This document shows positions 44,965-62,201 of a stretch of DNA of 64,000 bases, one piece after another; within the stretch, counting starts at the first letter, position 1; every line of letters begins with the position of its first letter. Below the pieces are notes generated by a model. The model was given only the letters and a program-made list of their open reading frames with translations. It ran no database searches and was not told where the DNA came from. The stretch is from NCBI RefSeq assembly GCF_003584165.1, contig NZ_QXFJ01000030.1, positions 62,001 to 126,000 of the forward strand, in the 5' to 3' direction. Origin of the DNA: Flagellimonas aequoris (GTDB lineage: Bacteria; Bacteroidota; Bacteroidia; Flavobacteriales; Flavobacteriaceae). The translations under genes were made by a program, and so were the position numbers.

Positions 44965-45753
44965 ATGGACTCAAAAGCCATAGCCTTACATCTAGCAGAG
45001 AGCATCGATATATCTGGTTGCAGACAGGCCATGGATAAAGAACTTGTTTATGGCGATAGGGACGAACTGTTCTATTCGGATGGAACGTTGGGCTATCTGT
45101 ATATTTTCAAATATGGGATTGTATCGTTCTATGGGTTTGATGAAACGGCCATCTCCAATATTTTGATGGAACTAAAACCCTTTTGTGAAGAATGGCGCCA
45201 GTCAGAACTCACGGAGGAAATGGAAATTGAACTGGTTTCGGGAGAGCTGGCATCAAAAGTGACCAACAACAAAATAGTACTGTCAAAATCCAATGTGGAG
45301 GGCATGCGCTTGGCATTGTTACACTTATCACAATCGGTGGCCTTGGATTACTTTGCGGGGTTGTCGGACCAAATCATGAAGGAGACCCGAATCCACACAT
45401 CCTACTTGGAGCACAACGGTAAATTGGACCTTGGAGGAAAAAAACTGAAGAAATACATTGCCAGGGTGCTGAACATCAACAACCAGATTTCGGAAAACCT
45501 CTATATTTTCGATTCCCCAGAATCGGCTTGGGAAGACGAATATCTGGACAGACTGGACAAAAGCCTCAAACAGATCTTTGATCTGAAAGAGCGTTACCGT
45601 ACCATTAAGGAGCAGGGGTACATCATAAAAGAAAACTTAAGCCTTTTTAAGGACATAATGGACCATAGGGAAAGCAGCAGATTGGAATGGATCATCATCA
45701 TTCTGATCTTGGTGGAGGTCATGGACCTGTTCATTATGAGATTAATCAATTAA
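44965..45753 (+). CDS. RMD1/YagE (DUF155) family membrane protein
   Basis: Protein of 262 residues of the RMD1/SIF2/DUF155 family, known in yeast mitochondria and in bacteria as inner-membrane proteins of unknown function. The family pattern appears in [20 protein letters not shown] near the N-terminus and [33 protein letters not shown] in the centre. A C-terminal membrane anchor is present near residues 240-260 ([19 protein letters not shown]). It sits between the VOC gene and the RimB-RimK fusion, with an 11-bp gap to the latter. Operon position suggests a shared process. Confidence 0.85.
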
Positions 45754-45764
45754 CAACAATTATT

Positions 45765-47135
45765 TTGGACGATTTTAAAATATTGGGCAGCGAGGAGTGG
45801 TGCCGCTTCGAGGAATTGGGAATACCCGCCATCAAGGCTAGGGTGGATTCCGGGGCAAAGACATCATCCATGCAGGCCAACAAGATCAAGATTTTTAGCA
45901 AGGGGCTGGAAGATTGGGTACGGTTTGAGGTGAACCCGTTGCAGGACAACAGGAGCATCTCCATTCTGTGCCAGGCCAAACTGGTAGATGTTCGCAGTGT
46001 AAAGAGTTCACAAGGGATTTCCGAGGAGCGCCCCGTAATCAAGACCCCGGTGAACATTGGGGGCAATGTTTTTGAGATCGAGGTTACCCTAGCCAACAGG
46101 GATACCATGGAATATCGGATGTTGTTGGGCCGTGAGGCACTTAATGCAAGATATTTGGTGGATCCTTCCCAAAGTTTTTGCCAAGGTGATATTTCGGATG
46201 AAGAGATGTCACACAAATATAGACCCTACCAATCCGATAAAACCGGGTTGAGTATTGGGTTATTGGCCAGTAATCCAGAGCTTTACAGTAATAAGAGAAT
46301 CATTGAGGCAGGGGAAATACGAGGGCATAAAGTGGTTTTTTTAAACGTGGAGAACGTTTATATGAAACTGGATGCCAGTTCTCCGGAAATACGATATAGA
46401 GGAGGTAACATTCTGGATAAGTTCGATGCCGTGATTCCTAGGATCAAGCCTTCCGTGACCTTTTATGGTTGCGCCTTGTTGAGGCAGTTTGATACTCTGG
46501 GAGTCTATTGCCTGAACTCTGCGGATTCCATCAGTAAATCCAGGGACAAACTGTTTGCCTCCCAGTTGTTCTCCAAACATGATATTCACATTCCCATTAC
46601 CGGATTTGCCAAATCACCGATGGATACCAAGGACTTGATCCGGATGGTAAACGGGGCCCCCTTGATCATCAAATTATTGGAAAGTACCCAAGGGAAAGGT
46701 GTGGTCTTGGCAGAGACCAATAAAGCAGCGGAAAGTGTCATCAATGCGTTCAAAAGCGTACAGACCAATATTTTGGTGCAGGAGTTCATCAAAGAGGCGA
46801 ACGGTCAGGATATCCGATGTTTTGTGGTCAATGGTAAGGTGGTGGCCTCTATGCAGCGGCAGGCACAAAAGGGAGAGTTTAGGGCCAATATACACCAAGG
46901 AGGTGCGGCTTCTTTGATAAAGATCACTTCGGAAGAGCGAAAACTGGCCATAAAATCGGCAAAAGTGCTTAATCTCGATGTGGCCGGGGTGGATATCATC
47001 CGCTCCAATCGCGGACCTTTGTTACTTGAAGTGAATTCTTCCCCTGGACTGGAAGGCATCGAGAACACCACAGGGATGGATATCGCCAACGTGATGATCG
47101 AAACCATAGAAAGAAAACTAAAATATGCCCAGTAA
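45765..47135 (+). CDS. RimB-RimK fusion: retropepsin-like domain + ATP-grasp glutamate ligase
   Basis: Fusion of two modules usually separate. Residues about 10-145 match RimB/DUF785 ([20 protein letters not shown], Asp28 in DSGAKTSS, the retropepsin-like active site). Residues about 155-457 are an ATP-grasp ligase of the RimK type: [60 protein letters not shown]. RimK ligases add glutamate to a carboxyl terminus (ribosomal S6 in E. coli). The frame is open back into the RMD1 gene; no ATG is available, so I chose the TTG at 45765, giving [12 protein letters not shown] as in RimB proteins, 11 bp after the previous stop. The target protein here is unknown. Confidence 0.85.
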
Positions 47136-47227
47136 AAACATAGTTGGTTAACTAATTTATAATCAATCAATTGAGTTTTAGCCGGTAATTTCCTACACAC
47201 CGTGCGCATTTTAGAGCCATAAATTGA

Positions 47228-47261
47228 AATGGGGCATCCGTTAAAGCAGATGCCCCATTTG
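47228..47261 (+). terminator. Terminator-like hairpin after the RimB-RimK gene
   Basis: Twelve-base inverted repeat AAATGGGGCATC / GATGCCCCATTT with a 10-nt loop, about 95 bp downstream of the stop. The T-run on the plus strand is short, so it could act in either direction. Confidence 0.6.
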
Positions 47262-47295
47262 TTAATTGGCCCCACTTCAAATCTCATAGCCATAG

Positions 47296-47303
47296 TATGT
47301 TTG
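47296..47303 (+). promoter_or_regulatory. -7 promoter box of a candidate small RNA gene
   Basis: TATGTTTG is an exact TAnnTTTG match following the terminator hairpin and preceding a structured, ORF-free stretch. Expected start near 47309. The -33 element is unclear (TTG at 47267-47269 is 26 bp away). Confidence 0.45.
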
Positions 47304-47308
47304 TCCCA

Positions 47309-47525
47309 GTTAACACACAAACCTCCTAAAAATAGGACGGGGTGATTGTAGGGACCAAGTGTTCTTTTCCCCATATCTTATCATGAACGAGGTTTTACGT
47401 TGCGCCATGGGGGTTTTTGAGGTTGAGCCCCCTTGGTTGCAGCGGTTTACAGATCAAATATATGTTTCCCATAAATTTGACCTACTTTATTAGGAAAGGA
47501 GCTATGGAAATGGCTCCTTTTGTTT
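47309..47525 (+). ncRNA. Candidate structured small RNA (~215 nt)
   Basis: Lies between a promoter box (47296-47303) and a rho-independent terminator (47495-47525) in a 525-bp gene-free gap. A strong long hairpin spans 47398-47444: CGTTGCG-CCA then GGGGG pair with CCCCC then TGG-TTGCAGCG around the 14-nt loop 47414-47427, with one bulge and one T-T mismatch. An upstream 7-bp pairing AAACCTC (47319-47325) with GAGGTTT (47389-47395) encloses a GGGG/CCCC helix; an alternative pairs AAACC with GGTTT at 47444-47448. I see no ORF. The size and bulged long hairpin recall 6S-type RNA, but no family signature is certain. Confidence 0.4.
47495..47525 (+). terminator. Rho-independent terminator
   Basis: AAAGGAGC (47495-47502) pairs with GCTCCTTT (47513-47520) around a 10-nt loop, followed by TGTTTTTCTTT. 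It ends the candidate small RNA transcript. Confidence 0.7.
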
Positions 47526-47625
47526 TTCTTTCCTTTTGAATGCCATTAATCTTATTCACGGAAATTGTTCACATCTTTTAAGAAAAGGGGAAAGCACCTT
47601 AATGTAAGTTTTTGCACAAAAAACC

Positions 47626-47633
47626 TACTTTTG
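47626..47633 (+). promoter_or_regulatory. -7 promoter box for trxB
   Basis: TACTTTTG matches TAnnTTTG exactly; it lies 27 bp before the chosen trxB ATG (47661), with a TTTG 11 bp upstream of it at 47611-47614, too close for a standard -33. Confidence 0.5.
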
Positions 47634-47660
47634 TAAGATAATGCATTGAGGATTTTTGTT

Positions 47661-48629
47661 ATGTCAGAACAAGTAGAAAGAATAAAAACATTGATCATTG
47701 GGTCTGGTCCAGCTGGGTATACAGCAGCAATCTATGCTTCTAGGGCCGACTTGAAACCTGTAATGTATACAGGAATGGAGCCAGGAGGACAATTGACCAC
47801 CACAACCGAAGTGGATAATTTTCCAGGGTATCCTGAAGGTATAGATGGCCCAACCATGATGATGCAATTGCAACAGCAAGCAGAACGCTTTGGTACCGAT
47901 GTGAGGATCGGAATGGTGACCGCTGTTGATTTTAGTGACGAGATTGGTGGCCTGCACAAGATTACCGTGGACGATTCCAAGTTTATAGAAGCTGAAACGG
48001 TGATCATATCCACTGGGGCATCTGCAAAATACCTGAACATCCCGAGCGAACAACGTTTACGTGGTGGTGGTGTCTCTGCCTGTGCCGTTTGTGATGGTTT
48101 CTTTTACAAAGGCCAGGAAGTAGCCATTGTTGGGGCAGGGGATACCGCTGCGGAGGAGGCATCCTATTTGGCCAATATCTGTAAAAAGGTGACCATGTTG
48201 GTGCGTAAGGACCATATGCGTGCTTCAAAGGCCATGCAGCATAGAGTGAACAGTATCGATAATATCGAGATCAGATACAATACCGAAGTGGATGAAGTAT
48301 TGGGTGATCAAGTGGTCGAGGGAATAAGGATTGTGGACAACCAAACCGGGGAGAAGGAGGAGATTTCTGTTACGGGATTGTTCATAGCGATCGGGCACAA
48401 ACCCAACACCGATATTTTCAAGGGACAATTGGATATGGATGAAACAGGATACATCATCACCCAGCCCAAATCCACGAAAACGAATAAGCCAGGAGTTTTT
48501 GCCAGCGGTGATGCCCAGGACAAGATTTATAGACAGGCCGTTACGGCTGCAGGTACAGGGTGTATGGCAGCTTTGGATGCCGAGCGGTACTTGGCCGCGG
48601 TAGAAAGCAAGGAAATGATGGCTTCCTAA
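47661..48629 (+). CDS. trxB: Thioredoxin-disulfide reductase
   Basis: FAD-dependent NADPH:thioredoxin reductase, 322 residues. FAD-binding GSGPAGYTAAIYAS is near residue 13, the redox-active CAVC pair is Cys141/Cys144, the NADPH-binding motif GAGDTAAEEA is close after, and the second FAD motif GVFASGDAQDKIYRQAVTAA is near the end. The start was set at the ATG at 47661 (MSEQVERIKTLIIG); the longer frame from a TTG at 47646 adds five residues. It is monocistronic, with a promoter box upstream and a strong terminator downstream. Confidence 0.96.
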   Translation: MSEQVERIKTLIIGSGPAGYTAAIYASRADLKPVMYTGMEPGGQLTTTTEVDNFPGYPEGIDGPTMMMQLQQQAERFGTDVRIGMVTAVDFSDEIGGLHKITVDDSKFIEAETVIISTGASAKYLNIPSEQRLRGGGVSACAVCDGFFYKGQEVAIVGAGDTAAEEASYLANICKKVTMLVRKDHMRASKAMQHRVNSIDNIEIRYNTEVDEVLGDQVVEGIRIVDNQTGEKEEISVTGLFIAIGHKPNTDIFKGQLDMDETGYIITQPKSTKTNKPGVFASGDAQDKIYRQAVTAAGTGCMAALDAERYLAAVESKEMMAS

Positions 48630-61400: not shown

Positions 61401-62201
61401 ATGAACGCACACGAAATAGACTATCACATTTACGGAGAGGAAATGCAATATGTACAGATCGAACTGGATCCACAGGAGGCCGTTGTGGCCGAAGCTGGTA
61501 GTTTTATGATGATGGACACCGATATTAAAATGGATACCATCTTTGGGGATGGCTCCAATCAAGAAACCGGGGTCCTTGGAAAACTGTTTTCAGCGGGCAA
61601 GCGCTTACTTACAGGCGAGAGTTTGTTCATGACCGCTTTCCTGAATGTGGGCCAAGGTAAAAAACAGGTAAGCTTTGCTTCTCCCTATCCCGGTAAGATC
61701 ATTCCTATCGACCTTTCAGAAAAAGGAGGGAAGTTCATCTGTCAAAAAGATGCCTTTTTGTGTGCCGCGAAAGGAGTTTCCATTGGTATCGAGTTTTCCA
61801 AGCGTTTGGGTCGTGGACTTTTCGGTGGGGAAGGTTTCATCATGCAAAAGCTGGAAGGGGATGGTATGGCCTTTGTTCATGCGGGTGGTACCATGGCCAA
61901 AAAAGTGCTGGCTCCCGGAGAAGTCTTAAAGGTGGATACCGGTTGTATTGTGGGCTTCTCCCATACCGTCGATTACGATATTGAATTTATTGGAGGTATC
62001 CGAAACACCGTTTTTGGCGGGGAAGGTTTGTTCTTTGCTACCCTGCGTGGACCAGGTACCGTCTATATTCAATCTTTGCCTTTTAGCCGATTGGCCGGTC
62101 GCGTTTGGGCCGCAGCTCCAAAAGGAGGTGGAAAAGACAAAGGGGAAGGCAGTATTTTGGGCGGCCTTGGCGATTTATTAGATGGGGATAATAGGTTTTA
62201 G
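61401..62201 (+). CDS. AIM24/TIGR00266-family protein
   Basis: Protein of 266 residues of the AIM24 (TIGR00266) family. Core motifs: VQIELDPQEAVVAEAGSFMM, TGESLFMTAFLNVGQGKKQV, EFSKRLGRGLFGGEGFIMQK, AHAGGT-like (FVHAGGTMAKKVLAPGEVLK) and the glycine-rich VFGGEGLFFATLRGPGTVYI at the end. It folds as a double-stranded beta-helix/tubby-like barrel; bacterial members are cytosolic or membrane-associated and of unknown function. Its ATG is preceded by the AT-rich CAATCAAAAAA context seen at several starts here. No clear operon partner follows. Confidence 0.9.
   Translation: MNAHEIDYHIYGEEMQYVQIELDPQEAVVAEAGSFMMMDTDIKMDTIFGDGSNQETGVLGKLFSAGKRLLTGESLFMTAFLNVGQGKKQVSFASPYPGKIIPIDLSEKGGKFICQKDAFLCAAKGVSIGIEFSKRLGRGLFGGEGFIMQKLEGDGMAFVHAGGTMAKKVLAPGEVLKVDTGCIVGFSHTVDYDIEFIGGIRNTVFGGEGLFFATLRGPGTVYIQSLPFSRLAGRVWAAAPKGGGKDKGEGSILGGLGDLLDGDNRF

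Follow-up and report, generated by a model that had tools for sequence, protein, structure and literature searches.

A conserved, structured small RNA gene with a probably activator-dependent promoter, predicted upstream of trxB in Flagellimonas aequoris

The gap upstream of the thioredoxin reductase gene trxB in Flagellimonas aequoris harbors a conserved, structured RNA gene with its own predicted promoter and terminator. Judged from its sequence, this RNA, here called RNA A, is a genus-specific regulatory RNA that is almost certainly free-standing and probably acts in trans. Taken as a whole, a free-standing, activator-switched regulatory RNA appears reasonably likely, its best reading being a trans-acting small RNA that displays an invariant GAGGUUGA loop. 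A paralogue, RNA B, is found at other places in most genomes of the genus and appears to share the promoter design.

We analysed a window of 64,000 nucleotides (positions 62,001 to 126,000 of contig NZ_QXFJ01000030.1), to which all coordinates below refer. Direct reading of the sequence places a 525-bp gap at 47136-47660. It follows the stop codon of an ORF at 45687-47135 that carries RimK and zinc-protease domains, and runs up to the trxB start codon (ATG at 47661). The trxB gene lies on the same strand (+) as the RNA, and both genes were named by domain search. The gap, the promoter box, the AAACCTC/GAGGTTT pairing, the hairpin and the terminator listed in the initial annotation are all present, their coordinates agreeing with it exactly or to within a few bases. 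The features, including matches of two covariance models (R1, comprising helices P1-P4 and built from 28 loci, and R2, comprising P4), are as follows.

47236..47245, + strand: direct repeat 1, ATCCGTTAAA; initial AT in 68/68 aligned loci (67 genomes), core G in 59/68
47240, + strand: G of repeat 1, at about -68
47257..47266, + strand: direct repeat 2, ATTTGTTAAT, 21 bp past repeat 1; second base T in 68/68, core G in 42 and A in 26
47261, + strand: G of repeat 2, at about -47
47296..47303, + strand: -7 box TATGTTTG of the TAnnTTTG type in the sRNA promoter, from alignment conservation
47308..47525, + strand: predicted sRNA of ~218 nt, from promoter and terminator; start placed by taking the -7 box to span -12 to -5, the position given in PMC9723704 for F. 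psychrophilum
47316-47448, + strand: match of model R1, 113.6 bits, the locus itself being among the model sequences
47319..47325, + strand: 5' strand of helix P1, AAACCTC, pairing with 47389-47395; C-G/U-A and A-U/G-C swaps
47331..47382, + strand: helices P2/P3, enclosed by P1; 82.6% and 79.5% of cells paired, two-sided changes in 6/11 pairs
47331-47337 and 47376-47382: P2/P3 strands AATAGGA and TCTTATC, with one mismatch in the window copy
47339-47342 and 47369-47372: P2/P3 strands GGGG and CCCC
47389..47395, + strand: 3' strand of helix P1, GAGGTTT, from the alignment of 28 loci
47389-47449, + strand: match of model R2, 60.9 bits
47398..47444, + strand: hairpin P4, CGTTGCGCCA..TTGGTTGCAGCG, common to RNA B
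47416..47427, + strand: apical loop of P4, TTTGAGGTTGAG, a candidate seed from conservation and predicted openness
47494..47531, + strand: intrinsic terminator of the sRNA, with its stem at 47494-47521 and a T-rich tail to 47531; stem pairs covary (alignment columns 278-305)
47609..47633, + strand: trxB promoter-like element, with TTTTTG (47609-47614) and TACTTTTG (47626-47633)

What defines a small RNA, namely its own promoter, its own terminator, a conserved fold and no conserved ORF, is found here in the sequence. The earlier proposal of an independent, possibly new small RNA of about 215 nt is thereby supported, with a predicted start at ~47308, a predicted end at ~47525, and conserved promoter, structure and terminator. 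A terminator scan is weak by itself: 901 bases gave two hits against 0.8 expected, and one of the two falls within the upstream gene. That the locus is real is settled, at the level of sequence, by conservation.

A blastn search of 148 relatives with 241 bases found matches in 68, each of which belongs to the 71 genus genomes (Flagellimonas/Allomuricauda). One of these matches, in G062, proved spurious and lacks trxB; the true copy of this genome lies at C1:181806. Model R1 detected RNA A in 70/70 genus genomes, with the best E-value per genome between 1e-24 and 2e-8, and the 71st genome (G070) has a blastn match. Outside the genus, neither R1, run on 349 family genomes (237 genera), nor R2, run on 259 (235 genera), matched anything; weak relatives may have been missed in both searches because the filters were strict. 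Applied to the trxB loci of 29 other genera and our own, R1 returned the own locus and otherwise chance-level matches (L334, E 3.6; L309, E 4.8). A pattern for the loop had 21 matches in 19 of 397 family genomes, three of which are RNA A; the 18 others compare with 5 for the reversed control. None of 4227 Rfam families matched anywhere in the 64-kb window at gathering score, and a search with E up to 10 over 46900-47800 yielded no 6S-Flavo match and a highest sub-threshold score of 19.5 bits against a cut-off of 56. An Rfam/Infernal search with 6S-Flavo included was the check proposed at the outset, and it points to no known unrelated element at the locus. RNA A would accordingly appear to be new, a genus-wide small RNA absent from Rfam.

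The 230-nt stretch folds with a minimum free energy of -75.3, compared with -58.15 ± 4.46 for shuffled sequences (z = -3.85; 0/200 shuffles as low). Folding alone cannot fix the strand, because the reverse complement also folds better than its shuffles (z = -3.32); promoter, U-tailed terminator and conservation together assign it. The predicted fold consists of P1 enclosing P2/P3, followed by the long hairpin P4, and the best-conserved part of RNA A is the P4 stem with its apical loop. Covariation across genomes had also been suggested as a check, and compensatory changes do support the helices across the genus genomes. A first alignment kept 55 of 69 loci, leaving out L044 (short), L016 and L022 (contig ends) and loci more than 95% alike. 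From it, unguided RNAalifold recovered P4 and the terminator, with 26 pairs, 11 of them with two-sided changes; P1-P3 were not recovered from these 55 sequences, as the variable 5' part blurs the region.

A second alignment, of 28 of 68 loci, starts from the P1 strand. Here 92.4% of cells are paired in the proposed structure, falling to 39-57% after sliding by 1-3 columns, and there are 28 two-sided cells vs 9.2 ± 2.5 in shuffles that ignore relatedness. P1 displays C-G to U-A and A-U to G-C swaps, although its counts lean towards pairing because the P1 strand in these loci was located by complementarity; the inner pairs of P4 display G-C to A-U swaps in the same 28 loci. The third alignment covers P4 in 35 of 59 distinct sequences (18 from RNA A and 17 from RNA B). 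In it, 97.7% of cells are paired and two-sided cells number 40 vs 13.8 ± 6.5, again in shuffles that ignore relatedness. Further pair types show no excess (15 vs 15.1), and the 5 two-sided pairs, vs 2.9 in shuffles, were reached in 30/500 shuffles.

Upstream of the -7 box, the genus promoters carry two direct repeats, ATYCGTTAA-like and ATTGRTTAAT-like, at a pitch of 21 bp, a feature absent from the initial annotation. Repeat 2 lies 39 bp from the -7 box in 64/68 loci and 38 bp in the other 4 (a count that excludes L016, includes G049 twice and lacks G026, G034, G056 and G062). With the -7 box set to -12 to -5, the GTT cores of repeats 1 and 2 have their G at about -68 and -47, respectively. 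An alignment of the genus promoters reveals no conserved -33 element between the repeats and the -7 box. A sigma-A polymerase would need an activator at such a promoter, since the -33 element is missing and the two repeats are present, and we regard activator dependence as very probable.

Within the own genome, the two-repeat pattern has an exact match at this promoter only; allowing two mismatches adds 15 more, a total of 16 vs 17 for the reversed control. A conserved block, TRAATTCAAAA or, in relatives, TTGATCCAAAA, is seen at 47220-47230, just 5' of repeat 1, and resembles the final part of a third 21-bp unit. A pattern of 21-bp units, which does not match RNA A's own site, has two more places in the own genome, compared with none for the reversed control. 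One array (L114, G000:C30:814468-814497) has TATTTTCC at 38 bp and stands 5' of a long ORF. The other (L106, G000:C15:271453-271482) stands 5' of an ORF with a lipoprotein-like start and has a TACATTTG box at another spacing. Both proteins look exported, their starts having been judged by eye, and the two genes may belong to the same regulon.

The same promoter design recurs at RNA B, likewise absent from the initial annotation. In most genomes R1 also had a second match with a lower score, and of 36 such places read (one per genome, two in G065), 35 are RNA B (L262-L289, L291-L293, L298-L301); L290 was rejected as a chance match. By R2, RNA B is present at a place besides RNA A in 57/70 genus genomes, 35 of these 57 having been read. 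The own genome is among the 13/70 without it, as neither R2 nor blastn with the RNA B of G047 gave a match there. The two RNAs have GAGGTTTCCGTTRCGCCAAGG...CCTTGGTTGTAAYGG in common; the 5' part of RNA B differs and its P4 loop is variable, with a near-invariant core of AUAUAGCAAU.CACUUUU..UUGGUCA..AAAGUGUUUAGUUUAGUUGAGGUUUCC. In many loci a U-tract follows its P4 hairpin without a break, and this hairpin may serve as the terminator of RNA B.

Promoters of RNA B were compared at 34 of the 35 loci (L263, with no -7 box found, was left out). Although they lie elsewhere in the genomes, the best repeat pair has a pitch of 21 bp in 34/34, and the spacing is 39 bp in 32/34; two differ in spacing, one of them L286, whose 60 bp corresponds to 39 plus one 21-bp unit. 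Two other promoters score below the 99th percentile of shuffles and 32/34 score above it, percentiles that flatter RNA B somewhat because the -7 box was chosen for the best repeat score, the shuffles lacked that choice and the pattern was widened for L276. Since RNA B uses the same promoter design, RNA A and RNA B would form a small regulon. These promoters are the strongest argument from sequence comparison that the repeats matter and that both RNAs probably share a regulator. Further repeats (CATCCGTCAATTCAAAA..CATTCGTTTATT, for example) are seen 3' of RNA B in L267, L269, L299, L300 and L301, suggesting a possible further promoter of the regulon at that place.

Compared with what we take to be the LytTR 9-mer consensus, repeat 1 of the window agrees at 8/9 positions and repeat 2 at just 7/9. 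A LytTR domain (PF04397, E 9.7e-22) occurs in a response regulator of the own genome; no regulator is linked to the RNA locus. LytTR sites are defined in the available part of PMC11347149 as pairs of 9-bp direct repeats 10-13 bp apart, and the pitch of 21 bp (9 + 12) falls within this definition in the 68 RNA A loci and in 34/34 RNA B loci. The resemblance makes a LytTR-type activator somewhat likely. Alternatively, the RNA might be as described here and the 21-bp repeats be bound by a regulator of another family, a sizeable minority possibility that would fit the arrays that reach a third unit or part of one (the TRAATTCAAAA block, L106, L286), as well as the poorer agreement of repeat 2. The pitch, the position near -47/-68 and the missing -33 element agree, however, with the promoters described in PMC4227749, PMC11347149 and PMC10602386, and three-repeat operators of LytTR regulators are on record too (PMC11347149).

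Under the reading of an activator-switched, trans-acting RNA, a signal-responsive LytTR-type response regulator would bind the two repeats and let sigma-A polymerase fire the promoter that lacks a -33 element, so that the RNA would accumulate while the regulator is active. Its loop, (UU)GAGGUUGA, might then pair with mRNAs bearing AACCUCAA near the start codon, the weakest step of the scheme, and change their translation or stability. The P4 loop reads GAGGTTGA in 70/71 RNA A loci and TTTTGAGGTTGA in 64/71, and the mean predicted unpaired probability of UUGAGGUU within it is 0.91 (62 sequences). Pairing with mRNA through this element is favored because the loop is kept in 70/71 loci and predicted to be open, and we consider it nearly an even call, leaning slightly against. 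The same letters recur in the linker of RNA A, where they are predicted to be mostly paired in P1 (0.19 unpaired; n = 29 fitting the search string), so that GAGGUUU would be held in P1 while the loop displays the same letters. In RNA B the linker carries UUGAGGUU in 32/34 loci and is predicted to be half open (0.41; n = 34, including two variants).

The complement of the loop, a 12-mer, has 119 matches in 25 genomes. The RNA itself accounts for 24 of these, and the 95 non-self matches compare with 50 obtained with the reversed pattern, whose dinucleotides differ. Among the 90 matches fetched (84 non-self), a few lie near start codons and serve as target leads. In five genomes (L345, L349, L358, L386, L389) the 12-mer coincides with codons 3-7 of a gene whose product is likely exported; this may reflect a target site or simply conservation of the coding sequence. 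At L365 (G000:C30:594594, own genome) and L393 it starts 21 nt 5' of the start codon (ATG) of a 55-codon ORF that likely encodes a membrane peptide.

A free-standing RNA could also act by protein binding through the P4 stem-loop, as a sponge or as a binder of polymerase or an RNA chaperone, in place of pairing with mRNA. We consider this unlikely. The letters of P4 are conserved (7/17 pairs are invariant among the 28 RNA A loci and 3/15 over RNA A and RNA B), the loop of RNA A barely varies, and the target search established no mRNA, all of which would be consistent with a bound protein. Between RNA A and RNA B, however, the stem is retained but the apical loop changes in both sequence and length. 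A protein that reads the loop could not bind both alike because of this difference, whereas one that reads the stem could.

Its position makes a link between the RNA and trxB worth weighing. RNA A precedes trxB on the same strand in 70/71 genus genomes (66 loci, one per genome, plus 4 added); in the exception, G067, the contig ends first. The distance from the P4 loop to trxB is 161-248 bp, with a median of 228 (66 loci). The RNA is linked more closely to trxB than to the RimK-like gene, since the latter is within reach upstream in just 43/70 loci. This arrangement would suit a 5' leader, attenuator or riboswitch of trxB, which we nonetheless regard as very improbable: the RNA has its own predicted terminator, followed by a separate trxB box. 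A TAnnTTTG box lies within the last 110 nt 5' of trxB in 66/66 genus loci (leaving out L022, and also L076 and L044, whose genomes were already represented by another piece) and in 21/29 other genera, none of which shows the RNA. Paralogue B, moreover, has the same design at other genome places. No 21-bp repeat pair was found within 500 nt upstream of trxB in the 29 other genera. This genus therefore seems to have gained the RNA upstream of trxB, as the other genera lack both RNA and repeat pair and many have the trxB box. Hence RNA A is probably not part of the trxB message.

The initial annotation had considered a 6S-type RNA, which mimics an open promoter, on the grounds of length and the long bulged hairpin. 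This identity was rejected and is barely credible, as 70/71 genus genomes have a 6S-Flavo gene (in the own genome on another contig, G000:C27:107572-107681, with 99.5 bits vs a cut-off of 85), no Rfam family matches at the trxB locus, the predicted fold lacks a large central bubble, and the best-conserved part is the P4 stem and loop. 6S-Flavo (RF01685) is likewise a Bacteroidetes RNA; it spans 108 positions. An mRNA for a small peptide is equally hard to believe and was disfavored: a 44-codon GTG ORF does cross the region, yet over ~141 nt of the RNA core the three frames are open in 4, 2 and 0 of 71 loci (leaving out L076 and L044, second pieces of genomes already counted). At a minimum of 40 aa, the only ORFs listed in the gap on the RNA strand are one of 44 aa with a GTG start and one of 40 aa with a TTG start.

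VirR and RgaR carry LytTR domains, and RNAIII of Staphylococcus aureus, which is transcribed from P3, is longer than RNA A and encodes a peptide, unlike RNA A, which is without a conserved ORF. In the available text of PMC10602386, RgaR drives the sRNA SpoZ of Clostridioides difficile via VirR-like repeats with key Gs at -51/-72, 21 bp apart. SpoZ and RNA A would thus be alike in having repeats upstream of the core promoter at the same 21-bp pitch (about -47/-68 here), and in a regulator with few targets. In contrast, SpoZ belongs to the Firmicutes, the likeness rests on the promoter description and not on RNA sequence, and the regulator here is a candidate. The agr P2/P3 promoters are similarly switched on via direct repeats, being bound by the LytTR response regulator AgrA at repeats centred near -60, as far as the accessible part of PMC4227749 goes. 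Within the Flavobacteriaceae, Rfp18 of Flavobacterium psychrophilum is, in the accessible part of PMC9723704, also a structured, genus-conserved sRNA with a stem-loop predicted to pair with mRNAs. R1 and R2 matched nothing in the other genera searched under strict filters, which gives no sign of homology.

We tentatively hypothesize, while considering it rather unlikely in full, that agr/RNAIII and RgaR/SpoZ have a counterpart in Bacteroidota. In it, a LytTR two-component system would switch on, via 21-bp repeats without a -33 element, paralogous genus-specific sRNAs that expose the same UUGAGGUU letters (in the apical loop of RNA A and the linker of RNA B) and act on overlapping sets of mRNAs; a few genes for exported proteins would also answer to these repeats. 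A table in PMC5395568 gives counts of LytTR response regulators for Flavobacterium genomes, and in the literature searched no title or start of abstract described a DNA site for such a regulator in Bacteroidota. Likewise, titles and abstract starts of the Muricauda small-RNA literature mention no small RNAs of this genus among the matches listed. The accessible text of PMC9723704 calls the Flavobacteriaceae understudied, and that of PMC5395568 points at a paucity of sRNA data in the group. In a family where RNA regulation is little studied, the locus would provide a structured sRNA, a defined promoter design and a paralogue for comparison, along with the concrete prediction that a LytTR regulator reads the 21-bp repeats.
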